Shown here in pieces: positions 21,236-50,405 of a DNA stretch of 64,000 nt. The stretch is from Deroplatys truncata (lineage: Eukaryota > Arthropoda > Insecta > Mantodea > Mantidae): positions 281,507,341 to 281,571,340 of the forward strand of contig CM060990.1 in NCBI GenBank assembly GCA_030765065.1. The letters run 5' to 3'. The translations under genes and the position numbers were made by a program. The first letter of the stretch is position 1. Each line of letters opens with the position of its first letter. The notes beneath the pieces were generated by a model, which was given only the letters and a program-made list of their open reading frames with translations, searched no databases and was not told the DNA's origin.

Positions 21236-21241
21236 TACACT
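21236..21241. repeat. 6-bp target-site duplication, left (TACACT)
   Basis: TACACT directly precedes AGTAGCTTATTTAGG. The identical hexamer follows the other terminus at 35,785-35,790. Confidence 0.85.
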
Positions 21242-21269
21242 AGTAGCTTATTTAGGAGAGAGCTGGGCC

Positions 21270-22370
21270 AGTTTTTGCGTTTATATGGGAAAAGATAGGG
21301 AAAACGAGGGTATATACGGCGATTCACGGAGGAAAATGCGTTTATATGGGGAAGATAGGGACTACGAGGATCGATGCTAGGCTAGATAGAGGTTGAAGGA
21401 ATGAGGATGTGCTTTATATGAGAGATACGTGGAATACGAGGAGAAGTGTTAGACTAGATAGGATTTGAGATGTGGAATATGCATTTATATGGGAAAGATA
21501 GGGAAAACGTGAACAGAGGCTAGGATAGACAGATGCTGAAGCAGGGAGAATATGAACATATATACAGGAGAGATAGGGGATACGTGGAGAGGTACTAAAC
21601 TATTCAGGGTTTGAAGGTAGAGTATGGCTTTTTATATGAAGAGACGAGGAAAACGAGGGTATATGCTAGGTTGAGAGAACCTTCAAGGAGGAAAAAATGC
21701 GTTTATATGGGTGAGATAGGGAAAACGAGGAGAGTTCTGAGGTAGAACAGGGACTGAAGGAGGGAGAGATATGCCTTATACGACAGAGATAGGGCGTACG
21801 AGGGGAGGTGCTAGTGTAGACAGAGGTTAAGGAGTACGGTATACGATTATATGAGGAATATATGCAAAATGGGGACAGATGGTATGATAGACAGAAGCGG
21901 GGCTACTTTTGCGTTTATATGGGGAGGGATAGGGAAAACGAGGGTAGATGCGACAGTTCAAGGAGGAAAATGGGTTTATAGGGGAGAGATAGGGAATACC
22001 AGAGCTGATGCTAGGCTAGTCAGATGCTAAAGGAGGGAGGAATATGCTTTATACGAGAGAGATAGGGAAGACAAGGAAAGATGTTATACTAAACAGGACT
22101 TGAAGGCTAGAATATGGCGTTTTATATGAGCGAGATAGCGAACCGAGGAGAGGTATTAGGCTAGGAGTTTTGAATGATAGAGTAGGCGTTTATATGCGAG
22201 AGATAGGGAATACGAGGGTCGATGCTAGGCTAGACAGGTTTGAAGTAGGGAATGCGTCTTATATGAGAGAGGTAGGGGAATATGAGGAGAAGTGCTAGGC
22301 TAGACAGAAAGGTCTGAATGACAGAGTATGCGTTTATATGGGAAAGGATAGGGAAAACGAAGGCAGGTAC
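21270..22370. repeat. subterminal ~70-bp tandem array, left arm
   Basis: About 16 units of the form TTTATATGGGAGAGATAGGG, AA(T/A)ACGAGG, then GCTAGGCTAGACAG and a GAAGG stretch. Period is roughly 70 bp with small variations. It mirrors 34,480-35,757. Confidence 0.85.
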
Positions 22371-22399
22371 TTCAATGTTTCAGGGTACGATGTTAGATT

Positions 22400-24297
22400 T
22401 TTTACCAGCTTATCCAAGCTCGTACTCAGAAACCGAAAACTATTTACAAACCGGAGCTTTATATCTCCGACATACTTGGAGAATGATATATAGCTTTCTT
22501 CAGAGCTAGGAATTACTTCCACCCGCTCACTTGTACATCCCAGCTCCTTAACAATGAAATGAGAGTCATATCCACTGAGGTTGTGCATGAAGACAGGGAT
22601 ATATTTAGGTGTTTTGCGGGCTAAATTACATTCATTATGCAGACTCCCCCGATATGCACCACTGATGTGATCATGGTCGCGTACTTAATAGTTCTCTTCA
22701 GTAAAGGTTTTTCCACACAAGTAGCATACTGTAGAGGCGTTAAAATCCATCTGCTGTTGATCTGTAAGTTTCAGGGGCATGACAGATTTGTATATATTAT
22801 TAATCTCCTTTGCAAGGAATGACAGGAATTCCATAAACTTCTGAGCAGCATCAACACCACGATATACATAGGGATGCTTAGGAAGACCAGTTTCCAGATG
22901 TTCAACGTTGGTTGATGGTTTAACGTAAACACAGAAGCTCATTGCTGTGTGCTCTTGATAAGGGGTTGTATAGGAAGTTTCAGGACTGGGAATACACGTA
23001 TGACATGGAGTGAGAATACTCTCAAAACCCGCATAGATGACATAAGGTACTTTCAGCATCCTCTCCACATTTTTAAACTGTACAATTGATTTCTCCTTTG
23101 TAGGCATAACTACCCTTGCAACACCATGCTGATTACACATGGCTGCATGTTCTTCCAGTTTTTCCAGCCCACTTCGTCCATATCGATTGTCAAAATGTGT
23201 AAAGCACCGCTTACAGGTATATATCACTCCACCATGCTTAGATTTTTGACGTCGAACGAGCTTCTCAAAATTCTTGATATATACATAGTGATGTTTTCCA
23301 CTACTGTCACTCAATAGCAGGAGGTCACAGTGGTCAGGTAGTTCAGTGTCAGCAACCTTTATCGAATACACTTCATGCTTCTCATCCAGGCCGAAAAAGT
23401 TGATAGACGTCCTATTAAGCTTCTCAAATTTAGGTATTTGAGAAAGCGGAGTAGGATAGGAAGCACAGCTGAAGTCGTACTTATCTTGAGTTTCTTATAT
23501 TTGCTCACCCGTTGAGGCTTGACGCTGACAAATGTGGCTAATATAGAGTACATAAAGCATAGCTCATCAGTTAAATTCTGGATGTTAATGCAGGCTTTTC
23601 TTGCTTCAACAGATGGCGGTAGTGGTATGTAGCTACTTCCTCGTAACGGGTTGTACTTGTTAATACGAAGGCGCACCCCTTCCACAGCAAGCAGAGCCCA
23701 GTTGCTTCCCTTTAGTTGTGATTCCTCCATTTCAGTAACCAATTTCTTCATTTTGGTTTCCAGCATAGAGTCCCGATCCGTTTCCAGGAAAACAGCTTGA
23801 TTTCTGGTTTTAAATGTCTTGTCACAAGTTTCTCCGATACTGTTAACAAATCTGCACTCAGCTAACAGATTAATTTTCAAACTCTTGTGAATACCAAGTT
23901 CTTTATGCACGGCCTGGATTATCCGCTGTTTTGCTTCATGCAGGTACATATTCAGATCCTTAGTTGATTCACAGCGTATAAAATAGGATTTCAAGCGTCC
24001 ATGGAATGAAGTTTCATATTCTTTCATGCCACACTCCTCCATTGTAGATAACAACTCTTGTTTTGTCGGTTCTAATCTACGTTTCTTCTCAGGTCTGTTT
24101 ATTTCACACGCATCTTCGTGTCGACGACCCTTATAACTGTCTTTGAAGGCTACATTACAATATTTACATTTGAAGAGCTTTTTACAACGTAGCTCATGTC
24201 GTCTTTTATCATATCCACGGAGGAACTTCTTACAGCATTTACCACAAGAATATCCTGAGACACTAGGAATGATATCCTAATACACCGAGTTATTCAT
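22400..24297 (-). pseudogene. PolB fossil, left arm (N-terminal part)
   Basis: Part of the palindromic element above. Mirror copy of the first half of the right-arm polymerase, with the N-terminal zinc-finger region, the segment TVCYLCGKTF and the exonuclease-side motif NLSGYDSHFIVKELG. It is transcribed from the core outward. The polymerase palm is not present in this arm. It is a broken fossil with a few breaks and agrees with the right-arm copy at nearly every residue compared. Confidence 0.85.
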
Positions 24298-24456
24298 CTT
24301 TATTCTTGATATAATAACGTATTAATCCTTCTTCAAGGGAAATGTAGACCTCTTCACCTTGATATCACTTAGAAAGCTGATTATTTTCTGAGAGAACAGC
24401 GATGTTAACACCTCAGAGTTGATCAACAGAATGAGTTTCAATGCTAGAGGTCGCTC

Positions 24457-24464
24457 TATTTATA
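24457..24464 (-). promoter_or_regulatory. TATA box of the left-arm polymerase promoter
   Basis: TATAAATA on the minus strand, with the arthropod-type initiator TCATTC about 30 bp downstream. It is the exact mirror of the right-arm promoter at 29,763-29,798. Confidence 0.6.
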
Positions 24465-24739
24465 GAGAAAGCACGAACCTTTTTTAATCAATTATATCCT
24501 GATTATTAATACTAAAAACGGTGATGAAGCGTGTAAGCTCTTATATTTCAATTCGGGTTACACTGATGTTCGAGCGTCTCCGTATAGCTTCTTATGCTTA
24601 GAGAAAGTATAAGTATTGTGAAGATGTATGTATTGTTCGGCTATAATCGTACAGATTCGGAGAGCTTGACTCGTGAAGGTGATGAACGATCCGTCGACTG
24701 AGCAGGAGGCAAGCATTCCCTCCGCGCAACGAAATCTAG

Positions 24740-26160
24740 ATGCAAATGAAAGAAAATCGTGATAGATGAGAAACCACCCAGACATTCGCCTGCAGACCAT
24801 GGAAAACCATGAAAAATATGTCGGAGCGAGCGTCCAACGGAACTCGAACCAGGGACTCTAAAAGCACACGTAAAAGATAAAAATTATATAGAATGAAAGG
24901 AAATCGGAATCGATGAGAAACCACTCCAGCATTCGCCTGCAGACCACGGAAAACCCTAAAAAATATGATGTCAGAGTGATCAACCAACAGGAATCAAACA
25001 AAGGACCTTAGAATCACCTAGGTTAAGATGTAAATCAAATACAAATGCAATAAAATCGCGCTAGATGAGAAACCACCCAGACATTCGCCTACAGACCAGG
25101 GAAAACCACGAAAAATATGGCAGAGTAAGCAACCAACGGCAATCGAACGAGGGAAACCATCAGATTACTCTAGAAGCATAAAGTTGCAAATGAAAGAAAA
25201 TCGTGATAGATGAGAACCCACTCAGGCATTCGCCTGCAGACCAGGGGGAACCATGAAAAAAAATCAAAGGTCTGAGCGACTGGCGGATAGAGTGTGCGAC
25301 CGACAGGGAAATCAAACAAAAGGGCTCTAGAAGCAAAAAAAGATGCAAATGAAAGAAAATCGTGATAGACGGGAAACCACTCAGGCATTCGACAGCAGAC
25401 CAGGGAAAACCATGAAAAATCGAGATCGGAGTAAACAATTGATTGAAATCTTACCCTGAACCCTAGAAATTTACGTGAAAAATGGATTGAAAGGGAATCG
25501 TGATAGCAAATACCACTACAGCATTCGACAGCAGACCAGCTAAAACCATGAAAAATCGAGATCGCAGTAAACAATTGATTGAAATCTAACCCTGAACCCT
25601 AGAAATTTACGTGAAAAATGGATTGAAAGGGAATCGCAATAGCAAATACCACTACAGCATTCGACAGCAGACCAGCGAATACCATGAAAAATCGAGATCG
25701 GAGTAAACAATTGATTGAAATCTAACCCTGAACCCTAGAAATTTACGTGAAAAATGGATTGAAAGGAATCGCGATAGCAAATACCACTACAGCATTCGAC
25801 AGCAGACCAGCGAAAACCATAAAAAGATCCGTGATCAGAGTAAACAATCGATGGAAACCTAACCCCTGAAACCTAGAAATTCACGGGAAAAAATACAAAT
25901 AAAATGGATTGAAAGGGAATCGTGATAGCAAATACCGCTACAGCATTCGACAGCAGACCATCGAAAACCATGAAAGATCCGTGATCAGAGTAAACAATCG
26001 ATGGAAATCTAACCCCTGAACCCTAGATATTCACGTGAAAAAATACAAATAAAATGGATTGAAAGGAATCGTGATAGCAAATACCACTACAGCATTAGGC
26101 AGCAGACCAGCGAAAATCGTGAGAAACCTAAGGCCAGAGTGCTCTTCCCTACGGAAATCG
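24740..26160 (-). repeat. inner tandem array, left arm (about 136-bp units)
   Basis: Reverse-complement image of 28,040-29,500. Units contain GGTTTTCCCTGGTCTGC, (A/T)GGCGAATGC and GTGGTTTC/GTGGTATTTGC phrases. Four neighbouring units are spaced exactly 136 bp; outer ones are longer and more diverged. Open frames here are translations of the repeat and not genes. Confidence 0.85.
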
Positions 26161-26659
26161 AATCCGAGACCTCTCGAGTGCAAATTGCAGCCGTTATTGA
26201 CTGAACAAAACAGTAAAAATAGACCTCATTAGCAGTCGACAATGCTTAAACACGTTCACTTTCACCATATGACGTCACAGTTGGGGACAGTTTGACTATC
26301 GCCAACATGTCGAGACATGTACATTTTATGCGTCTCATAAACAAGAGAAGCATATTCTAGAACTTTCATGCCAACGTACTCACTACGCTCGCAAAGATAA
26401 TCTAAAATTTCATCGTTGAAATACTTTGGAAATAGCGTAGAAGTTTTTCCGCCCTTATTTAATTAAATTCATGTATATACCCTATTATTTAGTGATTTTT
26501 TCAATAATTTCTCCCTCTCATGTCCATTATTCTTCAAAGAATCAGTGTACAATATGCATTTTTATACGTTTTAATGTTCGTTTATTTTTAAAACCGCCGC
26601 ATTTGCCTGTAATTACGAGCAATAATTTTTTCAGATTTACTCCGATTTTTAGCCTGTGT

Positions 26660-27576
26660 AATCGAATTAAGAAATGCTCAATTGTTCTTGAGTCGCTATA
26701 TTATACCTACTGTGGGGTGGGGAGGAGGGGAAGTGGGGGGAAATACATACGTTTACAGAGCTTTCTATTTCACGGTCTTTACCAAAAAAAATTATTATTA
26801 CCGGTTATATCCTGGGATTGTAGCGCGTTATTGATTGTTGTTCCAAGTCGGGCTGGAGGACTAGGATTGAATCACGTGACATGAATACAAAGTCATCTTC
26901 GAATAAACTAAAAAAGTAATTAAAAATAAAATGGTGAACGTACGATATTACGTTTATATCAGTAACTAATTTCTTTGTTATGTATATTTGGACATCTGTC
27001 ATCCTGACGAATATTATATCTCTTAGATGAATGTATATTCAAATGGTGTAGTGAGCGTAAATAACTAGATTACGTAAGACGCTGACGCGCGCTGCAGCTG
27101 TATAGGCCAGACACTGCATTAGGTCCGTCCCTTACGGCGTGCTGTGCCGCACTGAGGGTCTCGTCCAGCTCTCAGCTCTTCATGAAGCCGGCCTTTCATC
27201 CCTACCTTACTCTCTCCAGGTGCCACCTCTCAGCTGCCTTTCGCAAGCCTTCTCCTCTCCGTACCAAGCGCCAGCTGATACTAGCTTCCTTGCCGACATG
27301 TAAGGCACGCTTATAAAACACGACTGAAATGGCCATGTTAGTTTTCCGATACATGAAGACAGCCATTATAGTTGTTAACGTTCGCTTTGGTTTTAAAAAA
27401 ACTTAAAAATAGATTGCAAGACATTATCTTTAACAAAGGAAGTCTTAAAAATGAAAATATAACAATCTTTATACTAAATACAAATAACGGGCATGGTAAC
27501 TTTAAAAATGTAGATACTTTAACCTAAAAAAATACAATACACTTATTAAAACATTTCCTAATTCGATTCTACAAGT
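26660..27576. other. unique core of the palindromic element
   Basis: This is the only part of the 14.5-kb element not present twice. The left side is AT-rich. A GC-richer block at about 27,080-27,310 contains CGCGCTGCAGCTG and CCTTACGGCGTGCTGTGCC. I recognise no protein or RNA in it. It separates the arms by about 0.9 kb, enough to make the palindrome clonable and stable. Confidence 0.6.
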
Positions 27577-28039
27577 TAAAAATCGGAGTAAATCTGAAAA
27601 AAATTATTGCTCGTAATTACAGGCAAATGCAGCGGTTTTAAAAATAAACGTATATTAAAGCGTATAAAAATGCATATTGTACACTGATTCTTTGAAGAAT
27701 GATGGACATGAGAGGGAGAAATTATTGAAAAAATCACTAAATAATAGGGTATATACATGAATTTAATTAAATAACGGCGGAAAAACTTCTACGCTATTTC
27801 CAAAGTATTTCAACGATGAAATTTTAGATTATCTTTGCGAGCGTAGTGAGTACGTTGGCATGAAACTTCTAGAATATGCTTCTCTTGTTTATGAGACGCA
27901 TAAAATGTACATGTCTCGACATGTTGGCGATAGTCAAACTGTCCCCAACTGTGACGTCATATGGTGAAAGTGAACGTGTTTAAGCATTGTCGACTGCTAA
28001 TGAGGTCTGTTTTTACTGTTTTGTTCAGTCAATAAGGCT

Positions 28040-29500
28040 GCACTTTGCATTCGAGAGGTCTCGGATTCGATTCCCGTAGGGACGAGCACTCTGGTCTTAG
28101 GTTTCTCACGATTTTCGCTGGTCTGCTGCCTAATGCTATAGTGGTATTTGCAATCACGATTCCTTTCAATCCCTTTTATTTGTATTTTTTCACGTGAATT
28201 TCTAGGGTTCAGGGGTTAGATTTCCATCGATTGTTTACTCTGATCACCGATCTTTTCATGGTTTTCGAAGGTCTGCTGTCGAATGCTGTAGCGGTATTTG
28301 CTATCACGATTCCCTTTCAATCCATTTTATTTGTATTTTTTCACGTGAATTTCTAGGGTTCAGGGGTTAGGTTTCCATCGATTGTTTACTCTGATCACGG
28401 ATCTTTTCATGGTTTTCGCTGGTCTGCTGTCGAATGCTGTAGTGGTATTTGCTATCGCGATTCCTTTCAATCCATTTTCACGTAAATTTCTAGGGTTCAG
28501 GGTTAGATTTCAATCAATTGTTTACTCCGATCTCGATTTTTCATGGTATTCGCTGGTCTGCTGTCGAATGCTGTAGTGGTATTTGCTATTGCGATTCCCT
28601 TTCAATCCATTTTTCACGTAAATTTCTAGGGTTCAGGGTTAGATTTCAATCAATTGTTTACTCCGATCTCGATTTTTCGTGGTTTTCGCTGGTCTGCTGT
28701 CGAATGCTGTAGTGGTATTTGCTATCACGATTCCCTTTCAATCCATTTTTCACGTAAATTTCTAGGGTTCAGGGTAAGATTTCAATCAATTGTTTACTCC
28801 GATCTCGATTTTTCATGGTTTTCCCTGGTCTGCTGTCGAATGCCTGAGTGGTTTCCCGTCTATCACGATTTTCTTTCATTTGCATCTTTTTTTGCTTCTA
28901 GAGCCCTTTTGTTTGATTTCCCTGTCGGTCGCACACTCTATCCACCAGTCGCTCAGACCTTTGATTTTTTTTCATGGTTCCCCCTGGTCTGCAGGCGAAT
29001 GCCTGAGTGGGTTCTCATCTATCACGATTTTCTTTCATTTGCAACTTTATGCTTCTAGAGTAATCTGATGGTTTCCCTCGTTCGATTGCCGTTGGTTGCT
29101 TACTCTGCCATATTTTTCGTGGTTTTCCCTGGTCTGTAGGCGAATGTCTGGGTGGTTTCTCATCTAGCGCGATTTTATTGCATTTGTATTTGATTTACAT
29201 CTTAACCTAGGTGATTCTAAGGTCCTTTGTTTGATTCCTGTTGGTTGATCACTCTGACATCATATTTTTTAGGGTTTTCCGTGGTCTGCAGGCGAATGCT
29301 GGAGTGGTTTCTCATCGATTCCGATTTCCTTTCATTCTATATAATTTTTATCTTTTACGTGTGCTTTTAGAGTCCCTGGTTCGAGTTCCGTTGGACGCTC
29401 GCTCCGACATATTTTTCATGGTTTTCCATGGTCTGCAGGCGAATGTCTGGGTGGTTTCTCATCTATCACGATTTTCTTTCATTTGCATCTAGATTTCGTT
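28040..29500 (+). repeat. inner tandem array, right arm (about 136-bp units)
   Basis: About ten units, each with a TTTTYRTGGTTTTCSCTGGT-type core followed by CTGC.GKCGAATGC. A TTTCTAGGGTTCAGGGGTTAG-like spacer separates them in the inner half. Some outer units keep a tRNA B-box-like phrase (CTGGTTCGAGTTCC near 29,370, GGATTCGATTCCCG near 28,062). The unit may therefore derive from a SINE-like sequence that was amplified in tandem. Confidence 0.8.
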
Positions 29501-29762
29501 GCGCGGAGGGAATGCTTGCCTCCTGCTCAGTCGACGGATCGTTCATCACCTTCACGAGTCAAGCTCTCCGAATCTGTACGATTATAGCCGAACAATACAT
29601 ACATCTTCACAATACTTATACTTTCTCTAAGCATAAGAAGCTATACGGAGACGCTCGAACATCAGTGTAACCCGAATTGAAATATAAGAGCTTACACGCT
29701 TCATCACCGTTTTTAGTATTAATAATCAGGATATAATTGATTAAAAAGGTTCGTGCTTTCTC

Positions 29763-29798
29763 TATAAATAGAGCGACCTCTAGCATTGAAACTCATTC
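29763..29798 (+). promoter_or_regulatory. core promoter of the right-arm polymerase (TATA + Inr)
   Basis: TATAAATA at 29,763-29,770 and TCATTC at 29,793-29,798 (arthropod initiator). The initiator A lies 32 bp from the first T of the TATA box. The polymerase start codon lies about 135 bp downstream at 29,930. The same arrangement is mirrored in the left arm. Confidence 0.6.
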
Positions 29799-29929
29799 TG
29801 TTGATCAACTCTGAGGTGTTAACATCGCTGTTCTCTCAGAAAATAATCAGCTTTCTAAGTGATATCAAGGTGAAGAGGTCTACATTTCCCTTGAAGAAGG
29901 ATTAATACGTTATTATATCAAGAATAAAG

Positions 29930-32900
29930 ATGAATAACTCGGTGTATTAGGATATCATTCCTAGTGTCTCAGGATATTCTTGTGGTAAATGCTGTAAGAA
30001 GTTCCTCCGTGGATATGATAAAAGACGACATGAGCTACGTTGTAAAAAGCTCTTCAAATGTAAATATTGTAATGTAGCCTTCAAAGACAGTTATAAGGGT
30101 CGTCGACACGAAGATGCGTGTGAAATAAACAGACCTGAGAAGAAACGTAGATTAGAACCGACAAAACAAGAGTTGTTATCTACAATGGAGGAGTGTGGCA
30201 TGAAAGAATATGAAACTTCATTCCATGGACGCTTGAAATCCTATTTTATACGCTGTGAATCAACTAAGGATCTGAATATGTACCTGCATGAAGCAAAACA
30301 GCGGATAATCCAGGCCGTGCATAAAGAACTTGGTATTCACAAGAGTTTGAAAATTAATCTGTTAGCTGAGTGCAGATTTGTTAACAGTATCGGAGAAACT
30401 TGTGACAAGACATTTAAAACCAGAAATCAAGCTGTTTTCCTGGAAACGGATCTGGACTCTATGCTGGAAACCAAAATGAAGAAATTGGTTACTGAAATGG
30501 AGGAATCACAACTAAGGGAAGCAACTGGGCTCTGCTTGCTGTGGAAGGGGTGCGCCTTCGTATTAACAAGTACAACCCGTTACGAGGAAGTAGCTACATA
30601 CCACTACCGCCATCTGTTGAAGCAAGAAAAGCCTGCATTAACATCCAGAATTTAACTGATGAGCTATGCTTTATGTACTCTATATTAGCCACATTTGTCA
30701 GCGTCAAGCCTCAACGGGTGAGCAAATATAAGAAACTCAAGATAAGTACGACTTCAGCTGTGCTTCCTATCCTACTCCGCTTTCTCAAATACCTAAATTT
30801 GAGAAGCTTAATAGGACGTCTATCAACTTTTTCGGCCTGGATGAGAAGCATGAAGTGTATTCAATAAAGGTTGCTGACACTGAACTACCTGACCATTGTG
30901 ACCTCCTACTATTGAGTGACAGTAGTGGAAAACATCACTATGTATATATCAAGAATTTTGAGAAGCTCGTTCGACGTCAAAAATCTAAGCATGGTGGAGT
31001 GATATATACCTGTAAGCGGTGCTTTACACATTTTGACAATCGATATGGACGAAGTGGGCTGGAAAAACTGGAAGAACATACAGCCATGTGTAATCAGCAT
31101 GGTGTTGCAAGGGTAGTTATGCCTACAAAGGAGAAATCAATTGTACAGTTTAAAAATGTGGAGAGGATGCTGAAAGTACCTTATGTCATCTATGCGGGTT
31201 TTGAGAGTATTCTCACTCCATATCATACGTGTATTCCCAGTCCTGAAACTTCCTATACAACCCCTTATCAAGAGCACACAGCAATGAGCTTCTGTGTTTA
31301 CGTTAAACCATCAACCAACGTTGAACATCTGGAAACTGGTCTTCCTAAGCATCCCTATGCATATCGTGGTGTTGATGCTGCTCAGAAGTTTATGGAATTC
31401 CTGTCATTCCTTGCAAGGGAGATTAATAATATATACAAATCTGTCATGCCCCTGAAACTTACAGATCAACAGCAGATGGATTTTAACGCCTCTACAGTAT
31501 GCTACTTGTGTGGAAAAACCTTTACTGAAGAGAACTATTAAGTACGCGACCATGATCACATCAGTGGTGCATATCGGGGGAGTCTGCATAATGAATGTAA
31601 TTTAGCCTGCAAAACACCTAAATATATCCCTGTCTTCATGCACAACCTCAGTGGATATGACTCTCATTTCATTGTTAAGGAGCTGGGATGTACAAGTGAG
31701 CAGGTGGAAGTAATTCCTAGCTCTGAAGAAAGCTATATATCATTCTCCATGTATGTCGGAGATATAAAGCTCCGGTTTGTAGATAGTTTTCGGTTTCTGA
31801 GTACGAGCTTGGATAAGCTGGTAAAAAATCTAACATCGTACCCTGAAACATTGAAGTACTTCGGAGAAGACAAGTTGAAGTTGATGACACGTAAGGGTGT
31901 ATTTCCCTATGATTACATCACCCCATGTGATGTTTTGAACGAAACCTGCTTACCTCCTAAGGACTCCTTCTACAATAAATTAAATGAAGAGGAAATTAGT
32001 GATGCTGACTACGATCATGCTAAAAATGTATGGGAGCTGTTTAATGTCAGAAACCTGGGCGAGTACAGCGACCTCTACTTAATCTCTGATGTGCTTCTCC
32101 TAGCTGATGTCTTTGAGACATTTAGGGAGCAAACACTCAAAACACACAAAGTCGACCCTGCACATTATTTCACCTCTCCAGGACTTACATGGGATGCCAT
32201 GTTACTGTACACTGGAATTCAGCTGGAATTGCTACAGGATTATGATCAATTACTCATGGTGGAATCTGGCATAAGAGGAGGTTTATGTCAAGTTTCCCAT
32301 CGCTATGCAGAGGCTAATAACACCTACATGGAGAAGTATGATCCGACGAGACCAACCCTATTTATTACCTATGAGGACGTCAACAACCAATATGGGTGGG
32401 GAATGAGTCACGCTCTCCCTTATGGTGGATTTGAGTGGGTATCACCTAAAAAATTCACTTAGAAAGACTGCAAGAAGATGGTCCTTAAGGCTACATATTA
32501 GAAGTCGACTTCGAGTATCCTGCGGAACTTCACGATCTACACAACGATCTACCTTTCCTGCCTGAGTGTATGACGCCTAAGGACTCTCCTACAAAGAAAC
32601 TGATACCTCATCTAGGACCTCGAAATAAGTATGTACTACATTACATGGCGTTGAAGCAGGCTCTTGATCATGGACTACGGTTAACAAAAATCCATCGTGT
32701 GCTATAATTCCAACAGTCTCGATGGTTAAAACCGTATGTGGAATTCCACAACAGACTACGACAACAGGCCGCAAATGATTTTGAGAAGGATCTCTACAAA
32801 TTGTTCAACAATGCTATGTTCGGAATAACTATGGAGAACCTGCGTAATCGTATGGATATACGGCTGGTGACAAATGAGAAGACTTTGGAAAAGTTAATTG

Positions 32901-33580
32901 CAAAGCCAACGTTTATCGACAGGACTATATATGCCTCTAATCTAGCTGCTGTACATATGGCCTCCCGACAGATCGTGTTCAGCAAGCCTATATACATCCG
33001 TATGAGTGTGTTGGATATCTCCAAGACATTAATGTACCGGTATCACTATGATGTGTTGTTACCGTATTATGGAGCTGAAAACCTGAAGCTTATGTATATG
33101 GACACTGATTCGTTCATTCATCGTGTTACAACTGAAGACGTGTACCAGGATAAGCTACGTTTTCTTGAGCACCTAAATACTGCTGATTGTCCTACAAGCC
33201 ATATATGCTATTCACCTCTAAACAAGAAGGTACTTGGGAAATTTAAAGATGAGGCTAATGGTAAAATCATTCAACGCTTTGTAGGGCTACGACCTAAAAT
33301 GTATGGCCTAGATATCGACGACTCAATGATAAAAAAGATTGAAGGTATAAAACGTAGTGCTATTAAGCAGTACGTCACGTTCGAGAGCTATACTGACTGC
33401 CTTAAAACCAGAGAAATTATCAGAACGCCCATGAATCTGATCCTGTCGCGACAGCATGCTCTTGCCACTGTACAAGTGAATAAAATTACATTGACACCAT
33501 ACGACTATAAAAGAATTATTGCTGAGGACGGTATAACGACATACGCCTATGGACATTACGTCATTACAAACAGTGCTTAA
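29930..33580 (+). pseudogene. protein-primed family-B DNA polymerase fossil, right arm
   Basis: Part of the palindromic element. Domains in order are N-terminal Cys/His fingers (CGKCCKKF, CKYCNVAF), a basic linker, and the exonuclease region (YVIYAGFES, NLSGYDSHFIVKELG). Between these lies a Cys/His insert (CYLCGKTF, HDHISGAYRGSLHNECNL) of the kind common in Polinton-type polymerases. The palm motifs are DVNNQYGWGM (A), LFNNAMFGITMENLRNR (B) and YMDTDSFIH (C). This is DNA_pol_B_2, the protein-primed class used by Polintons and related viruses to copy their linear DNA. It is broken, with about half a dozen breaks, so no functional polymerase is expected from this copy. Confidence 0.9.
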
Positions 33581-34019
33581 AAGAATGTAAGTCAAAGATA
33601 AAGATTTTCTCGTGAGTCTACAATTTTAAAAAAATGAAGGTTATCCGTGTGCTGTATATGCAGCTAGCTGACCACCGATAAAGAAAGAAGAAGATGGAAG
33701 GGAAGGTGGTAACCCTGCCATTAGGATCAATCCTAGTGCTAGTCTCAAGCCTAGATAAATAGGGGAGATACACCTACAACGAACTAAAATAAAGGTATGT
33801 TGACGTAAACTTTCAATTAAAACTCTCGAATAATAAATCCTGAATAAAACATTACAATTTCACTAAAAGAAAGTTGAGGTTATCTTTGGTTAGCCAGATT
33901 AGGTTAGTCGATGACTGAGTAGAATAGATGATGAGAGGAACGTTTGGGATTGGTGGGGTTAATCTAGGCTAGGCTCTCGTACTTATTGTCTAAGTTATGA
34001 AGGATGAATTAGTTTAGAT

Positions 34020-34262
34020 TGCCTTAGCAATGGGTTGGTTACGTGTTGTTCTTACGTTTTGTTACGTGGTTACATGGTTGGTACGTGTTGATACGTCGTG
34101 TGACGTTTCTAGTTACGAGATGTCACGTGATGTTGTGTGGTTACGTGCTTATGTTACTTAGTGTGACGTCTTGTCATGCTGTTATGTTACGTTGTGTTAC
34201 GTCTTGTTACGTGGTTACGTTTGTTGGTTACGTCTTGTTACGTGATTATGTTAGGAATGAAT
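34020..34262 (+). repeat. GTTACGT minisatellite in the right arm
   Basis: Irregular tandem runs of TTACGT(G/C)(T/G)TGTTACGTGG. The ACGT tetramer recurs about every 10-15 bp. It lies between the polymerase and the subterminal array. No coding meaning is seen. Confidence 0.7.
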
Positions 34263-34479
34263 AGACAATGAGAGGATCCAGAACATACAAGGTGGGGGAA
34301 TAGGTTAGGACGTATACTTCACTGTAACCCGATATACAGTTTGTCCCTCTCCGTCTCGCACACTACTGTTAAACATATAAAAAGTTTGTAAGGTTTAGAA
34401 AAAAGTATATAAAAGTGTTGTAACGTTGGATGAGAAATGTTTTATAATCTAATTACTCTCTATATTACCGTATAAACCT

Positions 34480-35757
34480 ACATTCCTCCGCCTTCTTCAA
34501 CCCCTGTCTAACCTTGTATCTCTCCCGTTTTCCATATTTCTCCCATATAAACGTATACTCTGCTCCTCAACCCATGTCTAGACTAGCACCTCTCCTCATA
34601 TGCCCTACCGCTCTCATATAAATGCATTTTCCTCCTTGAAGACTCTCTCAACCTAGCACCTGCCTTCGTTTTCCCTATCTTTTCCCATATAAACGCATAC
34701 TCTGTCATTCAGACCTTCCTGTCTAGCCTAGCACTTCTCCTCATATTCCCCTACCTCTCTCATATAAGACGCATTCCCTACTTCAACCCTGTCTAGCCTA
34801 GCATCGACCCTCGTATTCCCTATCTCTCGCATATAAACGCCTACTCTATCATTCAAAACTCCTAGCCTAATACCTCTCCTCGGTTCGCTATCTCGCTCAT
34901 ATAAAACGCCATATTCTAGCCTTCAAGTCCTGTTTAGTATAACATCTTTCCTTGTCTTCCCTATCTCTCTCGTATAAAGCATATCCCTCCCTCCTTTAGC
35001 ATCTGACTAGCCTAGCATCAGCTCTGGTATTCCCTATCTCTCCCCTATAAACGCATTTTCCTCCTTGAACTGTCGCATCTACCCTCGTTTTCCCTATCCC
35101 TCCCCATATAAACGCAAAAGTAGCCCCGCTTCTGTCTATCATACCATCTGTCCCCATTTTCCATATATTCCTCATATAATCGTATACCGTACTCCTTAAC
35201 CTCTGTCTACACTAGCACCTCTCCTCGTATGCCCTATCTCTGTCCTATAAAGCATATCTCTCCCTCCTTCAGTCCCTTCTCTACCTCAGAACTCTCCTCG
35301 TTTTCCCTATCTCACCCATATAAACGCATTTTTTCCTCCTTGAAGGTTCTCTCAACCTAGCATATACCCTCGTTTTCCTCGTCTCTTCATATAAAAAGCC
35401 ATACTCTACCTTCAAACCCTGAATAGTCTAGTACCTCTCCACGTATCCCCTATCTCTCCTGTATATATGTTCATATTCTCCCTGCTTCAGCATCTGTCTA
35501 TCCTAGCCTCTGTTCACGTTTTCCCTATCTTTCCCATATAAATGCATATTCCACATCTCAAATTCTATCTAGTCTAACACTTCTCCTCGTATTCCACGTA
35601 TCTCTCATATAAAGCACATCCTCATTCCTTCAACCTCTATCTAGCCTAGCATCGATCCTCATAGTCCCTATCTTCCCCATATAAACGCATTTTCCTCCGT
35701 GAACCGCCGCATATACCCTCGTTTTCCCTATCTTTTCCCATATAAACGCAAAAACTG
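34480..35757. repeat. subterminal ~70-bp tandem array, right arm
   Basis: Mirror of 21,270-22,370, with about 18 units and therefore slightly longer. Units read CCCTATCTCTCCCATATAAA with GCATATTC and TCTAGCCTAGCACC. The CATATAAACG phrase is the best-conserved part. Confidence 0.85.
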
Positions 35758-35784
35758 GCCCAGATCTCTCCTAAATAAGCTACT

Positions 35785-35790
35785 TACACT
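35785..35790. repeat. 6-bp target-site duplication, right (TACACT)
   Basis: It follows the right terminus (...AAGCTACT) and matches 21,236-21,241. Confidence 0.85.
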
Positions 35791-39140: not shown

Positions 39141-39146
39141 AACGCA
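39141..39146. repeat. 6-bp target-site duplication, left (AACGCA)
   Basis: AACGCA directly precedes AGTAGTATAAGTCCC and recurs at 50,400-50,405. With one copy counted, the Harbinger reading frame runs on as GSTHYTRIF across the site, which confirms it as the target. Confidence 0.93.
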
Positions 39147-39156
39147 AGTAGTATAA

Positions 39157-39300
39157 GTCCCGGATGAGCCAATTGGATTAACGATAATCCTGCCGCTAGG
39201 GGGCGCTAGTGTCGCTAGTGTCGCTGCGAGCGACGGCGGTAAGTTTGAAAAGCGACATGAGCGGAAGGATTATCGTTATTGCAATTGGTTCATCCGGGAC
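39157..39300. repeat. terminal hairpin, left end
   Basis: GTCCCGGATGAGCCAATTGG at 39,157 pairs with CCAATTGG-type sequence ending TTCATCCGGGAC at 39,300. A second paired block (CGATAATCC / GGATTATCG) lies further inside. The loop holds CCGCTAGGGGGCGCTAG (39,193-39,209), a close match to the CTCF consensus, and short GTCGCTAGT repeats. It starts only 10 bp inside the element end. Confidence 0.8.
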
Positions 39301-39319
39301 GAGCTAAAAGAATTGAGGA

Positions 39320-40680
39320 TTAGGGAAAGATGAACGAAAAACAGGAAGTGACGTGGAGTGTTTTGATTGGTAAAAATAAGACGAAATGTGATTGGTTCTT
39401 TAATTCGGGTGGAAGATGAAGGAAGGAAGATAAAAGAGTATGGAGGACACGTGATGGAGAGGAGCGGGGTGGCGAGGTGTTGTCTGTGCGGAGGTCGGGA
39501 CTGAAAGAGGGAAAAGATGGCGAACGAGGGATAAAAAGTATAACAGAAAGTGACGTGTGAAGTTGTGATTGGTGGGAATAAGAAGTGATGTTATTGGTGG
39601 AAAGGAACAAATGAAAGTTGTTGATTGGTAAGAATAAGAGAGATTATGATTGGTGGAAAGAAAAAGGTGTGGGAGTGGGGTATGTTGGAGGTGATGGGAA
39701 AGGTAAGTTTTCCTAGCAACAAGATTTGCAAAAGCCTCTCCAGAACTCATCAGCAATTTTTGAACGTTGGATGGTAGTTTTCTTGAGTGGATAGAGAGAT
39801 GGGACGTATGAGATGCGGTGGCGAAAATGGGAACTAAACAAGATGGTTGAGACAAGAGGTCTAAGGACGAGGAAATTTCGAGGTTAGTGGTCAACATGGC
39901 GGTCGCAAGAGGTGGGGGCAAGGAGACGCGGTGGTGAGAATGGGAACTAAAAGAAGATGGCGGTAGCAAGAGCTTAAAAGAGCAGATTTTGAGGTTAAAA
40001 TAGTGGGAACTAAAAATGGCGGAAGGTCGGCGACAAGGAGATGCGGTGGCCACGTTAATTCGGGTGGAAGATGAAGGAAGGAAGATAAAAGAGTATGGAG
40101 GACATGTGATGGAGAGGAGTGGAGCGGCGAGGTGTTGTCTGTGCGGAGGTGGGCCTGAAAGAGGGAAAAGATGGCGAACGAGGGATAAAAAGTATAACAG
40201 AAAGTGACGTGTGAAGTTGTGATTGGTGGGGATAAGAAGTGATGTTATTGGTGGAAAGGAACAAATGAAAGTTGTTGATTGGTAAGAATAAGAGAGATTA
40301 TGATTGGTGGAAAGAAAAAGGTGTGGGAGTGGGGTATGTTGGAGGTGATGGGAAAGGTAATTTTTCCTAGCTACAAGATTTGCAAAAGCCTCTCCAAACT
40401 CATCAGCAATTTTTGAACGTTGGATGATAGTTTTCTTGAGTGGATAGAGAGAGATGGGGCGATATGAGACGCGGTGGCGAAAATGGGAACTAAACAAGAT
40501 GGCGGTGACAAGAGGTTTAAGGACGAGGAAATTTCGAGGTTAGTGGTCAACATGACGGTCGCAAGAGGTGGGGGCAAGGAGACGCGGTGGTGAGAATGGG
40601 AACTAAAAGAAGATGACGGAAGCAAGAGCTTAGAAGAGCAGATTTTGAGGTTAAAATAGTGGGTACTAAAAATGGCGGGG
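39320..40680 (-). repeat. 655-bp tandem units, left arm (two copies)
   Basis: Equivalent points lie 654 bp apart (39,610 and 40,264). Each unit contains about five ATTGGT motifs (CCAAT box on the other strand) and a series of ATGGCGG motifs such as AACAAGATGGCGGTGACAAG, resembling YY1/Pleiohomeotic sites. Long Ser/His/Pro-rich frames across this array (up to 365 codons on the minus strand) are translations of the repeat. Confidence 0.85.
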
Positions 40681-41399
40681 GGTCGGCGACAAGGAGATGC
40701 GGTGGCGAACGTGAGAACTAAACAAGATGGCGGATGAAAGAGGAGGGTAAGGAGATTTGAGGTTACAGTACCAAAACAGGAAAGGATATATTCCTACGCC
40801 GAGCAGGCCAGAAAAATAATTATGCGTGTGGTACTTACCTCTTACTGGTGTTGATGCGTCACCAAAAGCGCAGCAGTTGCACGCGACGCGAAAAAATAAA
40901 AGCAAACTGTTTTTGAAAATGCTTAACCAGCTTTAAGATCAACCAACACCACTACGCACTGATATACCTAGGTTTTTTAAAGCGGTACAGACGCCCTTTG
41001 CACAGACGTAATTTAACTATACCAAAAACCTGGTACTGGACCATCGTAATGGTCGCTAGCGTACGTAGGAGCAGGGTTCTCATAGCCGGTCGAAAGCGGT
41101 CAAAAAAAGTGTACGACGTAGGTGTTGACAGTAGCTACTGTCGAGTCAACCGTCGAGGTGTGAATGAACGAGATCTGTTCTTGCCGGCAATCTGGTTCGG
41201 AGATGTGAGGTGCGGTGGCAAAAATGTGAACTAAACAAGATGGCGGAGACAAGAAGTGAAGAACGAGAGGATTTGAGGTTAGTGGTCAATATGACAGACG
41301 CAAGAGTGGTAATCAGCAGTGGATGTGCGTCACGATATGCCCGCTGCGATGAAAGAGCTGCAAACTGCGCGATAACTTGAAAAATATTGCCCGGCGTGA

Positions 41400-41850
41400 C
41401 GCATTGCGCGGCGCGCGCGTTTGCCGTAAACCGTTACAGTTGCCATACTTATATTATCCGTCTTTTTTTTCTTTTTTTCTTTTGTTTTTGTTTTCTTTTT
41501 TTTCTTTCTTTTTTTTTAAAAAAAACTAGTTTTTCGGGGTTTTCTCTGGTTGGTAGACGAATGCAAACTAATTCTGCTTTTTTCATAGGTTTTCCCTGGT
41601 TGGTAGGCGTTTGCTGTAGTGGTTGACGAAGCCCTTTCTAATTTTCGTGGTTGTCCCTGTCCGGTAGGCAAATGATGAAGTTTTCCCTTGTCGGCGCACG
41701 GATACTAGGCACATACTCGCACACACACACATTTAATAGTAGCGATACCACTTGATAAGGCACAAATTGCACGTTGTTTGTTAGGGCAATGCATGTTGAA
41801 AGTTGGCACACTGGGAAGTTGGTTCGCACAAAATCCACACAATGACAAAA
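41400..41850. repeat. inner part of left arm, poly-T tract and GGTTTTCCCTGG motifs
   Basis: A CGCGGCGCGCGCG stretch is followed by a T-rich run (41,461-41,525). Three spaced copies of GGTTTTCYCTGGTTGGTAGR then CGAATGC or CGTTTGC-like text follow. The same phrase builds the inner array of the PolB palindrome. It is mirrored at about 47,200-47,490. Confidence 0.75.
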
Positions 41851-42041
41851 TTGAAAATGTATATATATTTTAACACAAAAGTGTGCAGTGCAAAAGAAAA
41901 TAAAAATTAAATAGGCACACACACATTTAATAGTAACGATACCGCTTGATAAGGCATAAATTGCACGTTGTTTGTTAGGGCAATGCATGTTGAAATTTGG
42001 CACACTGGGAAGTGCATGTTGAAAGTTAGCACACAGGGAAG
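41720..42041. repeat. direct duplication, ~196-bp spacing
   Basis: A 95-bp stretch with TTAATAGTARCGATACC and TGCACGTTGTTTGTTAGGGC occurs at 41,724-41,820 and 41,920-42,010. The closing phrase GCATGTTGAAAGTT is repeated once more at 42,013. Confidence 0.8.
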
Positions 42042-42391
42042 CTGGGTCGCGCTGTGGTCAGCCGACTACTTCGTCAGCATGGTTCCCACGGTCAGGTTTC
42101 ATGCTATCGTGCAGTTTGCACGATGTGTACAGCACGTACTTCCCCGTATGATGGCCAAACACCTTCACAGCTGTGATAGCTTGTCGGCTTATTTCATGTT
42201 CATATTCCTTTTCAACGCATTTCGTTTGGAGGTATTGTTTATTTGTTTTTCATGGCAATACGTTTTTGGCATAAGTTTTTTGCATTAATTTTATATAACG
42301 GATTGCGAAAATGGAAGTTTCTATTTGTATTTATGACAACTATGAAAATACAAGCAGAAGGACAGGCTTTTTTCACCTACCATGCTGTTGC

Positions 42392-43113
42392 TGATGGTGC
42401 GCTTGGCGGCCATATTCGACAGGGTGCGGTTGGCGGCCATATTCGACAGTTTATTGCAATGCGTGCAACAAGGGCACACAACCACTTGTTGCTCGCGTCG
42501 CAATTTTGTGCGTGATTTTTCTGAGATTTTATGCACCGCACATCACAAAATCACTACACACGCCACTGATAGTTTTAAATATTTGACACTGATGTTGAAG
42601 TTGTGGCGGGGCACTGTTTTTAACTGCATACGCACTTAATAAATCACATAGCCGTGCGGAAATACTTAACTTTCAGCGAAAAGCACTAGTGGGGAGTGCA
42701 AGCTCAACCACTATTAGCAACATGTAGCAAGCGTTATAGTTCTGCTCGCGTTAGTCTTTTCTCCTACGATGTCGTTGTTGATGGTGCGGTTGGCGGCCAT
42801 ATTTGACAGTTTATTGCAATGCGTGCAACAAGGGCACACATCCACTTGTTCCTCGCGTCGTAAGTTTGTGCGTGATTTTTCTCAGATTTTATGCACAGCA
42901 CAACACAAAATGACTACACACGACACTGATAGTTTTAAATATTTGACACTGATGTTGAAGTTGGGGCAGGGTACTGTTTTTAACTCCACACGCACTTAAT
43001 AAATCACATAACCGTGCGGAAATACTTAACCTTCCGCGAAAAGCGCTAGTGGGGTTGCAAGCTCAACCACTATTAACAACATGTAGCAAGCGTTATAGTT
43101 CTGCTCACGTTAG
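42392..43113 (+). repeat. two tandem copies of a ~360-bp unit
   Basis: Landmarks GCGTGCAACAAGGGCACAC (42,462 and 42,822) and TTTTAAATATTTGACACTGA (42,571 and 42,931) are 360 bp apart. Each unit includes GGTTGGCGGCCATATT, with one extra GGCGGCCATATTCGACAG in the first. Frames here (76-90 codons) follow the repeat and are not recognisable proteins. Confidence 0.85.
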
Positions 43114-43527
43114 TATCGGAGAAAACAGTAAAAATAACGATTCTTATGTGCAGCGGAAGCAGCAGTACGTGAATGTCCGTGTGTTGATGAAACAGTGGGT
43201 GTGTGTTACAATATGGCTGACGCAGTTAAAGAGCTGTAAACTGAGCGATAACTTGAAAACGACCGTGAGAACGGTGCTGATAAAGCAGTCGCGTGACCGG
43301 AAGTGCACCGGAAATGACTGCGATTACAACTTGGCAAGTTGTGGCGAAATAAGGCGTCAGGATTTTTAATGAGGCATTTAACTCGACGCGCATGCTGAAA
43401 CTGCGGTTTAAATCCTTGCTTCATTTCCTTTAACTTTTGGTAATGCAAACAATAATTACTCTGGGGGAATGCTTTATTTCTGATACATTCTATAACGGGC
43501 CAGGCGTTTTACTTTTCTAGTTTTCTT

Positions 43528-44090
43528 TTTTACTTTCTCTACTACGTATAGTAAGTAGGGGAAGTATTGTATTCCACCCAAAAATTCGATACCGAGATTT
43601 CACCGGAAATACGTGTTTTGAGACCCCTGAATCCAAAAAAATGCATTTTTGGAAACATGTCTGTGTGTGTGTGTCTGTGAACAGCATAACTCAGAAACGA
43701 ACAGTCGGATAAGCACCAAACTTGGTATTTAGGTTCAGTATCTTCCAGAGATGCGACACGAAGGTTTCCAAGAAAATCCCCCCACGCCAGACAACCCTTT
43801 ACATGGACATTTTTCGAAAATTTTAATTTTCTGAAAAATGGTTCTAACGATTTTGATTAAAATATGATATGTTCAAGATATTTTCAAGACAAATGAAATG
43901 TATATCTCGAATTTTCTGGGAATGTCTCCAAAAGTATTCTTATTGTGAACGACTTTTGCATAAGTGGTAAACCATAAGAGATATACAAAATTTTACTACA
44001 CAAAAAATGTAGATCGCGTTAAAATACGCAATTTATGTCATATACATTTTTTTGTTGAGTGAACCATTTTCGAGATATTGCTTGTTATTC
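43528..44090 (+). repeat. dispersed repeat family A, copy 4 (longest)
   Basis: It starts CTCTACTACGTATAGTAAGT and includes ATTCCACCCAAAAATTCG, GGAAACATGTCTGTGTGTG, TTTGATTAAAATATGATATG and CTCGAATTTTCTGGGAATG. It is the fullest copy in the window and lies in the core of the second palindrome. Confidence 0.8.
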
Positions 44091-44389
44091 CCTTAAATGT
44101 TTCAATACTTATTTTCTCAAATGGGAATTCGTTATTCAGTTTTTGTCTTGTGTATGCAAAGAGTATTAATCTGAGGCAAAGAGAATGGTGATGCACATAG
44201 CAACCAGTTATTAAGAGATATGTATATGCTTAAAGGCTACTGTATTTCTATATTGCCCTTGTAAATACAAAACAAGGGGAACATAGTACGCCTTAAGCGA
44301 CAGTCATATATATTTAGAACTGGTCGCTATGTGTAAAATGTAATTGTCTTTGCATGTCAAAAGATCGTTTCTGCAAATGTTTATCTTGA

Positions 44390-45745
44390 TTAATATGAAA
44401 TAGATGGAGAATAAGAGTTTCTAAAAATAGTTTGTACAAGAGTAGATAGTCATGTGAGTGTTACACATCAGATTTTGTTTTTAGTAATTGTGACATTTTA
44501 TGTATCGACTACTTCTAGATCGGCCTTGCAAGGACATTGCAAATGACATGTATTGTTTAATTCATTTCCGTCATAAACCGTAAGGAACTGAAAAATAATA
44601 AAAATAAAATCAAGTCAGCATTAGAAAGATACCTTATCACTCACACCTTGAATACAGAGGAGGATTTCATTCATTCAAAAAAAATGATACTACTAATTTT
44701 ACTCCAAAACTTAATGCAGTTTTGTAAATACTAAATATAAATATTTTAAATGTAAATAACATTTTATGTCCTGGATATGCAAACAGAATAGAATGCGCCA
44801 CATAGCGAGAAACGGGAGCGATAGTGGTTTTTGCTATAAAATCGTGCTATTTGACGTGATATAAGTTTTAGAGCAATACGCGCACATGTGCGGGTGTCTA
44901 GGTTTAGTATCTTCCAGCGATGCGACACGAAGGTTTTCAAGAAAATCCCCCCACCCCAGACTACCCTATACATGGAATATTTTTCGAAAATTTTAATTTT
45001 CTCAAAAATGGCTCTAACGATTTTGATTAAAATATCATATGTTTAAGATAATGTCATGAGAAATGAAATGTATATCTCGAATTTTCTGGGAATGTCTCCA
45101 AAAGTATTCTTCATTGTGAACGACTTTTGCATAACTGGTAAACCATAAGAGATGGACAAAGTTTTACTACACAAAAAATGTAGATCGCGTTAAAATACAC
45201 AATTTATGTCATATACAGTTTTTTAGTTGAGTGAACAATTTTCGAGATATTGCTTGTTATTTCCTTAAATTTTCCAATACTTATACTTTTTCTCAAATTC
45301 GTTATTCAATTTTTTATGTCCTGGATATGCAAACAGAATAGAATGCGCCACATAGCAACCAGCGCTTAAAAGATTTGACTATCGCTTATTACCTACCATG
45401 TTCCCCTTGCATCTACAAGAAAATTAGCAATAAGATTGACATCTCGATATCTCGATTAACATGAAGTAGATGGAGAATGAGCGTTTGTAAAAATAGTTTG
45501 TACAAGAGTAGAGAAAGTCATGTGAGTGTAACACATCAGTTTTGCTATAAAATCGTGCTATTTGACGTGATATAAGTTTTAGAGCAATACGCGCACATGT
45601 GCGGGAGTCTAGGTTTAGTATCTTCCAGCGATGCGACACGAAGGTTTTCAAGAAAATCCCCCCACCCCAGACTACCCTTTACATGGAAGTTTTTTCGAAA
45701 ATTTTAATTTTCTCAAAAATGGCTCTAACGATTTTGATTGCAGCT
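44390..45745 (+). repeat. nested partial duplications with family-A copies 5 and 6
   Basis: The phrase GTAGATGGAGAATGAGCGTT / ATAGATGGAGAATAAGAGTT occurs at 44,400 and 45,467. ATGTCCTGGATATGCAAACA occurs at 44,766 and 45,316. TTTGCTATAAAATCGTGCTA occurs at 44,829 and 45,541, each time running into family A (CTTCCAGCGATGCGACACGA). The second family-A stretch is cut off by the 75-bp satellite at about 45,740. Confidence 0.8.
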
Positions 45746-46450
45746 TCGATACGTGTCCACGGAGATCTTAGTGCTAGGCAACTATACCTGTTTCTATACG
45801 TGAACGGCAGATTGCAACTTCGATACGTGTCCACGGAGACCTTAATGCTAGGCAACTGTACCTGTGTTTCTATACGTGAACGTCAGATGGCAGCTTCGAT
45901 TCTTGTCCACGGAGACATTAGTGCTAGGCAACTGTACCTCTGTTTCTATACGTGAACGGCAGATTGCAGCTTCGATACGTGTCCACGGAGACCTTAGTGC
46001 TAGGCAACTGCACCTCTGTTTCTATACGTGAACGGCAGATTGCAGCTTCGATTCGTGTCCACGGAGACCTTAGTGCTAGGCAACTGTACCTCTGTTTCTA
46101 TACGTGAACGGCAGATTCCAGCTTCGATACGTGTCCACGGAGACCTTAGTGCTAGGCAACTTTACCTCTGTTTCTATACGTGAACGGCAGATTGCAGGTT
46201 CGATACGTGTCCACGGAGATCTTAGTGCTAGGCAACTATACCTGTTTCTATACGTGAACGGCAGATTGCAGCTTCGATACGTGTCCACGGAGACCTTAGT
46301 GCTAGGCAACTGTACCTGTGTTTCTATACGTGAACGTCAGATGGCAGCTTCGATACGTGTCCACGGAGACCTTAGTGCTAGGCAACTGTACCTCTGTTTC
46401 TATACGTGAACGGCAGATTGCAGCTTCGATACGTGTCCACGGAGACCTTT
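45739..46450 (+). repeat. ~75-bp satellite, about 9.5 copies
   Basis: The unit reads CAGCTTCGATACGTGTCCAC, GGAGACCTTAGTGCTAGGCA, ACTGTACCTCTGTTTCTATA, CGTGAACGGCAGATTG. Copies start near 45,742, 45,816, 45,891, 45,966, 46,042, 46,118, 46,193, 46,267, 46,343 and 46,419 and differ by only a few bases. It is short-period and head-to-tail with no spacers. Confidence 0.93.
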
Positions 46451-46700
46451 CGCTTCAGGTGACAAAATAACACTAGGCACTTGTGTGCCGTGGTGTAAGC
46501 CGCAATCAGGCATTGGTAGCGTGGATCTCCTTGGGGCTCTCCTCGGAGTTACCTCAACACCACGTACATGACCTGGTTCGTCACGGGTACGCAGGTCTGC
46601 ACTACCACTTCCTCGGCGTTGAGCAGGCCCAGGAGGCGATCGTACCGGTACACCAGCTAGCACGTGGACATGTTATCGCGCTGTGGTGTTGCGTATGCGA
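46450..46700. other. GC-rich block of unknown origin
   Basis: About 250 bp, clearly richer in GC than its surroundings. A 87-codon frame runs on the minus strand (46,400-46,663) and an 89-codon frame on the plus strand (46,483-46,752). I recognise neither protein. It may be a captured exon or a foreign fragment. Confidence 0.45.
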
Positions 46701-47036
46701 GGTATGGAAACTCAAGGACGCAAAACATGCACGACCGAGGGTTAAAAAGTAGAACAAGTAGTGACGTGGAACGTTGTGATTGGTGAAAATAAGACGATCT
46801 CTGATAGGTGGACAAATTGAAATAACGTGATGTGATACGCGAAAATAAAATCAAAGGTGATTGGATGAAAAATGACGAGAAGGAATTAGCGGTGAATTTG
46901 TGAACTAAGATGGCGAAGTTTTGTTTTTAAAAAAAAAAAGACGGATAATATAAGTATGGAAAGTGTAACGGTTTACGGCAAACGCGCGCCGCGCAGTGCG
47001 TCACGCCGGGCAATAAAACAAAAACCATATTCAGCA

Positions 47037-50160: not shown

Positions 50161-50255
50161 CCAATCACATTTCGTCTTATTTTTACCAATCAAAACACTC
50201 CACGTCACTTCCTGTTTTTCGTTCATCTTTCCCTAATCCTCAATTCTTTTAGCTC

Positions 50256-50389: not shown

Positions 50390-50399
50390 TTATACTACT

Positions 50400-50405
50400 A
50401 ACGCA
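50400..50405. repeat. 6-bp target-site duplication, right (AACGCA)
   Basis: Follows the right terminus (...CTTATACTACT) and matches 39,141-39,146. Confidence 0.93.

Follow-up and report, generated by a model that had tools for sequence, protein, structure and literature searches.

A 64,000-nucleotide stretch of the genome of the mantis Deroplatys truncata (assembly GCA_030765065.1, contig CM060990.1, positions 281,507,341 to 281,571,340 of the forward strand; hereafter the window) carries, at positions 21242-35784, one member of a family of palindromic transposons related to Polintons (Mavericks), with the gene for a family B DNA polymerase (PolB) inside the inverted repeats. The family is abundant, mobile, and new in its architecture, and we regard its existence and the inheritance of its palindrome as near certain. 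The full form is about 20 kb long, with inverted arms of ~9.8-9.9 kb around a spacer of ~0.4-0.6 kb. Within each arm lie a terminal tandem array and a single PolB that points outward, and the termini (AGTAG...) are flanked by 6-bp duplications.

A family of palindromic elements

How many such elements does the host carry? The first-pass annotation, made from the letters of the window alone, had described an element that moves as a palindrome and had proposed looking for other copies with the same ends and 6-bp duplications. We searched the host assembly (4.29 Gb, 818 contigs), in which the 15-base element end has 55 exact copies, and took the sequence for eight convergent end-pairs besides that of the window (P1-P8, 5.5-20.1 kb). 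All eight have inverted ends and perfect 6-bp duplications, each different from the others. The contrary case that it had named, in which every other copy is single-armed, did not occur: PolB pieces lie in both arms of P1, P4, P6, P7, and P8 (5/8). P4 and P8 are near complete, with inverted matches of 9614 bp at 99.0% and 9452 bp at 99.5%, respectively, plus tips. At up to two mismatches, the 22-base end occurs 589 times forward and 587 times in reverse, while a reversed control gave 0 and 0; among the 100 places listed of these 1176, neighbors within 30 kb were convergent in 32 cases and tandem in 2. We also searched the genome with a C-terminal piece of PolB and scored the best 135 of 21,763 candidate places. 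Among those listed, all 40 pairs of PolB neighbors within 30 kb are divergent. The family was recently active, because the arms of several copies are little diverged.

A full-length copy was located through PolB at C4:168224173-168244667 (20,495 bp, duplication AGGGCA; hereafter the C4 copy). We read its left half, centre, and right tip, leaving out 168236001-168243999. Two 9.94-kb arms, each with an open PolB frame of 1225 amino acids (aa), surround a 613-bp spacer (L056:1114-1726); the arm stretches compared are 99.6% (1113 bp) and 99.85% (668 bp) identical. Of the 40 PolB pairs listed, 13 retain a frame of 1200 aa or more in each arm.

Is the centre of the palindrome shared among copies? 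The spacer of the C4 copy, which is asymmetric, was scored at 40 places with 85-100% identity (the best 40 of 2827 candidates). A listed PolB adjoins 13 of these, the other 27 having none among the matches listed, and in nine cases a listed PolB pair encloses the spacer, at the midpoint in seven and at 0.36 and 0.62 in two. The spacer is present in P4 and P8 and was looked for without success in P1, P2, P3, P5, P6, P7, and the window copy; the centre is lost in seven of the nine copies chosen by their ends. Because the same spacer recurs at 40 places, we conclude that the palindrome is inherited and not remade at each insertion. The spacer is inverted in P4 relative to P8 and the C4 copy, which we rejected as a sign of recombination, since a symmetric element can insert either way round.

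Foldback reads can create false palindromes, and an origin in assembly or in chimeric reads therefore had to be weighed. The eight other copies speak against it, with their distinct flanks, distinct perfect 6-bp duplications, and independent arm differences, as do two empty sites. The joined flanks of P3 align across the junction, and without a gap there, to the terminal array of the window copy; P3 had inserted inside the terminal array of another family copy. The joined flanks of P2 match 40 scored genome places at 93-95% across the junction, and from a reading of the letters its target looks like a mariner-type repeat. An artefact, already refuted for the family, is hardly credible as an explanation. 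One family copy is nested in the terminal array of another at C7:216882587-216894039 (L012/L013).

The copy in the window

The window copy consists of the following parts, in window coordinates.

21236..21241, + strand: left target-site duplication TACACT, read directly, equal to 35785-35790
21242..22366, + strand: left terminal array of ~70-bp units, beginning AGTAGCTTATTTAGG (repeat search and sequence)
22367..24276, - strand: left-arm PolB, N-terminal half, frame broken, C-terminal half deleted (open frames; DNA_pol_B_2 E=7.6e-07 in 22334-22684)
24743..26116, + strand: left-arm inner tandem arrays, units of ~136-150 bp (repeat search)
26194..26631, + strand: innermost surviving part of the left arm, 98% complementary to 27598-28035
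26632..27597, + strand: "core", part of the inner right arm, with its left counterpart deleted (found in both arms of P4, P8, and C4)
27598..29490, + strand: inner right arm with tandem arrays (repeat searches)
29951..33580, + strand: right-arm PolB, near-full span, frame broken (open frames; DNA_pol_B_2 E=6e-15 in 31542-32462)
31860..34654, + strand: 2.8-kb block of the right arm only, deleted from the left (jump between inverted blocks; 2800-base gap)
34655..35784, + strand: right terminal array, ending CCTAAATAAGCTACT, mirroring the left (inverted block, 98%)
35785..35790, + strand: right target-site duplication TACACT (sequence)

Much of what the first-pass annotation had seen here holds. 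A repeat search of the window gave inverted arms at 21242-26631 and 27598-35784, with main blocks 95-100% complementary, and the aligned arms differ at 56 of 5386 bases (1.04%). PolB does lie within them, DNA_pol_B_2 being matched by Pfam in one open piece per arm, although the open-frame list shows its reading frame broken in both; a 290-aa C-terminal piece from the right arm is 94.8% identical to an open genomic frame. Each arm also has the two kinds of tandem array that had been described, ~70-bp terminal and 136-150-bp inner, and the element, with AGTAG ends, is cleanly bounded by the 6-bp duplication. The mirror image around a 0.9-kb core needs correction. The arms are unequal: the longest gap in their alignment, 2800 bases, marks a block unique to the right arm (the C-terminal half of PolB and a stretch beyond). 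The 966-bp core itself occurs in both arms of P4, P8, and the C4 copy, from which it follows that the inner left arm and the true spacer are missing from the window copy. We accordingly rejected the core as the centre of the palindrome, the spacer of the C4 type not having been found in the window copy. The window copy is a damaged, deleted member of the family, its core belongs to the right arm, and its true centre is lost.

A second Polinton-type element lies at window positions 39147-50399, with ends AGTAGTATAAGTCCC, a duplication AACGCA at 39141-39146 and 50400-50405, and inverted repeats of ~2.7 kb or more at ~97%. Inside it are the decayed remains of a PolB at 46450-46683 (42% to a canonical PolB across 78 aa) and an array of 76-bp units at 45736-46449 (9.4 copies at 93%), and its terminal ~150 bp (39148-39310) are predicted to form a hairpin of great stability (-50.5 kcal/mol, z -11.2). 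At up to two mismatches its end is found 2333 times forward and 2317 times in reverse genome-wide, against a control of 0, and marks a huge family.

Gene content and relation to Polintons

How close is the family to canonical Polintons? It resembles them in its 6-bp duplications, AGTAG ends, length of ~20 kb, and a PolB with Endonuclease_7-like and DNA_pol_B_2 parts. Passages on vertebrate Mavericks describe end motifs (AG)3 or (AGT)2, 6-bp duplications, and lengths of 12.7-24.6 kb (PMC8097293), and those on Sf Mavericks describe Endonuclease VII (weak) plus POLB2 (PMC5803895). The duplications are found in the window copy, in P1-P8, and in the C4 copy. The termini read AGTAGC at ends chosen by that motif, where the agreement is by choice, though bounded by duplications, and AGTAGG in the C4 copy. 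DNA_pol_B_2 is matched at E=1.7e-27 over profile positions 7-461 of 468; Pfam missed the domain on the whole 1225-aa frame, and the C-terminal 679 aa gave it. The polymerase is of family B and of the protein-primed kind, and it may prime in that way.

The differences lie in the repeats and in the genes. Intact vertebrate Mavericks have, in the passages cited above, inverted repeats of 46-1447 bp with a mean of 402 (PMC8097293). In place of short repeats of up to about 1.4 kb around a single gene set, the family has arms of ~9.8 kb (P4, P8) and 9.9 kb (C4), which include PolB and account for almost the entire element. Of the Polinton genes, only PolB was found, in keeping with the earlier suggestion of a PolB-only lineage. 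With one canonical integrase, one canonical ATPase-like open reading frame (ORF), taken as the packaging ATPase, and two small ORFs, all from the Polinton L063, tblastn gave no match at E<=1, whether in the window, in P1-P8, or in those portions of the C4 copy that were read. None of the 112 scored integrase places (the best 112 of 11,715) falls in the 40 PolB pairs (plus 3 kb) or the 32 end pairs. No capsid or protease was matched by Pfam in 16 proteins scanned, no search having been aimed directly at the capsid, and a genome search with PF00770 was uninformative, as no control matched. Because we looked for the integrase and for repeats of canonical length and found neither, we class the family as Polinton-related, outside the canonical Polintons.

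In this genome, canonical Polintons (e.g., C3:71465795, L063) have the same broad kind of PolB, are abundant, and keep many frames open. Unlike the palindromes, L063 has one PolB, followed by the ATPase-like ORF, two small ORFs, and an integrase with a chromodomain (span C3:71467300-71471800). The integrase frame is open (rve E=1.9e-16, Chromo E=8.2e-09) and has at least 112 scored genome matches, many of them near-identical copies. In a subset of 44 canonical PolB places, taken from at least 152 matches, an integrase match lies within 10 kb of 24, and none is within 30 kb of another; outside that subset, C4:11089823 (minus) and C4:11105705 (plus) lie 16 kb from each other and differ in frame length and score. 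The C-terminus of the family PolB is only 26% identical to that of the canonical one, and we therefore rejected a recent deletion derivative of the canonical 1281-aa Polinton. A blastn comparison of L063 with the window, L055, L014, L022, L056, and L018 gave no match.

Where would an integrase come from? The 6-bp duplications and AGTAG ends point to a Polinton-type enzyme, and neither integrase nor ATPase was found in the palindromes read, both being present in ordinary Polintons of the genome; integration therefore probably uses the integrase of those Polintons in trans, which is the simplest reading of the sequences.

Among described systems, long inverted ends are ascribed to many contigs of Polinton-like viruses (PMC4642659); the passages concerned describe capsid and ATPase as core genes and mention neither a palindrome nor PolB within repeats. 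The PolB segment of BmBDV is a linear DNA with inverted ends that are believed to pair into a panhandle, and protein-primed replication has been proposed for it (PMC4938981). Bidensovirus differs in being a virus; its encapsidated segments are single-stranded and have in common a terminal sequence of 53 nt, without a whole-genome palindrome in the passages concerned (PMC4938981). The closest mechanistic model for the family is offered by the panhandles of adenovirus and bidensovirus. A scan of IMG/VR with the family PolB gave no match, and a PDB search gave only two weak zinc-finger chains (E 0.22 and 0.43). Among the papers listed from the open-access PMC literature, none mentions a palindromic Polinton in its title or abstract opening, subscription papers and Repbase being outside this scope.

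Copying between arms and the origin of the palindrome

Are the two arms of an element copied from one another? The 30 PolB loci compared include six element pairs, and in every one an arm is closest to its own partner (99.38-99.96%; best other 98.4-99.25%), and in a 42-row tree partner arms are sisters in 8 of 10 pairs, the remaining two lying in unresolved forks. We then examined breaks in the PolB frame in 27 pairs with a shortened frame in at least one arm. Frame length is equal in both arms in 15 of the 27; in 20,000 shuffles the mean was 0.71 and the maximum 6, and no shuffle reached 15. Scored against the open frame over the span common to both arms, shared and private breaks number 2 and 1 in the window copy, 1 and 2 in P4, 2 and 1 in P8, and 7 and 4 in P6. 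The presence of both kinds implies that breaks pass between arms before insertion and that more arise afterwards. Arm-to-arm copying within elements is well supported; we infer that it takes place during replication, probably in a panhandle. The shared breaks also suggest that a broken PolB did not keep a copy from moving, presumably with PolB from elsewhere. Between subfamilies, dN/dS of PolB is 0.05-0.10 at dS 0.16-0.52 (NG86, 290 codons), which speaks for constraint on the gene. Most of the loci were picked by protein similarity, biasing dN down; for L023, which was chosen through its ends, comparison with two protein-picked loci yielded 0.084 and 0.104. Within subfamilies the ratio scatters from 0 to 0.55, there being too few changes.

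The explanation that we favor, and as a whole consider moderately probable, is a Polinton-related family of self-complementary, PolB-only transposons with the following proposed replication. Primed by a terminal protein, PolB would copy the linear element and displace a strand in doing so. This strand would fold into a duplex stem of ~10 kb with a loop of ~0.6 kb (the panhandle), and resection, repair, or template use in the stem would rewrite one arm from the other. The linear product would then be inserted by the integrase supplied in trans by ordinary Polintons, and copies with a broken PolB, such as that of the window, would spread with PolB supplied by other copies. The palindrome would have arisen once in an ancestor, its centre often being deleted later.

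The first-pass annotation had instead suggested that hairpin self-priming yields a head-to-head dimer, which then integrates. Taken as an event at each insertion, this would have a one-armed linear form fold back at a fixed point, prime itself, and integrate as a fresh palindrome. It too predicts the close likeness and the shared breaks between the arms of a copy, and P3, with PolB in one arm only and inverted ends of ~2.5 kb, might be taken as such a product. However, the centre is not a short loop but the 613-bp asymmetric spacer common to 40 places; P3 matches P7 colinearly through the left half and then jumps to the right arm, as after one deletion; and none of the 40 listed neighboring PolB pairs has another orientation. 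We consider dimerization at every insertion unlikely. What remains of the suggestion is a single ancestral dimerization followed by inheritance, with repeated arm-to-arm copying, which fits better.

A static transposon with long terminal inverted repeats, whose arms are kept alike by chromosomal gene conversion after insertion, would need no special intermediate. Gene conversion between palindrome arms is known in chromosomes, and the spread of arm divergence, from 0.15% to 3.2% over aligned stretches, agrees with it. Older copies, however, retain private differences and large one-sided deletions (2.8 kb in the window copy) that conversion has not erased, and the mixture of shared and private breaks resembles copying before insertion and decay after it. 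This alternative appears to us quite improbable.

Several observations weigh against the replicative explanation that we favor. No replication intermediate has been observed; the panhandle, the terminal protein, and the integrase in trans rest on inference, and arm homogenization could also be gene conversion after insertion. Frame lengths differ in 12 of the 27 broken pairs, as expected if breaks also follow insertion, and shared and private breaks number 1 and 7 in P7 and 0 and 4 in P1. Ends common to the family and the canonical element encoding the integrase are a presumption. P2 and P3 carry PolB in one arm and P5 in neither (3/8 copies), and the clean inverted match of P5 is only 266 bp. 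In alignment, P1, P2, and P3 each track one arm of P7 and then jump to the other, and they map as a P7-like palindrome with a simple deletion at its centre; P5, also a remnant, is more heavily rearranged. Finally, 55 of the 135 listed PolB places have no listed partner, so one-armed copies may exist elsewhere; the family spacer lies 6.9-7.7 kb away on the expected side for 4 of these 55.

Polintons are central to models for the origin of adenoviruses, virophages, and bidnaviruses, and their replication has been inferred mainly from gene content. A genome that forms a huge hairpin leaves a readable record, in that shared and private arm differences report the templating of each copy. More tentatively, and with doubt slightly outweighing belief, the family may be a lasting lineage of obligately self-complementary replicons: a replicase-only Polinton satellite that carries its polymerase twice and borrows its integrase, and whose arms template each other, renewing both genes every cycle. 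This would show that a Polinton relative can persist without an integrase of its own, in a division of labor like that between satellites and helpers. The family would also be a recurrent natural source of 20-kb chromosomal palindromes.

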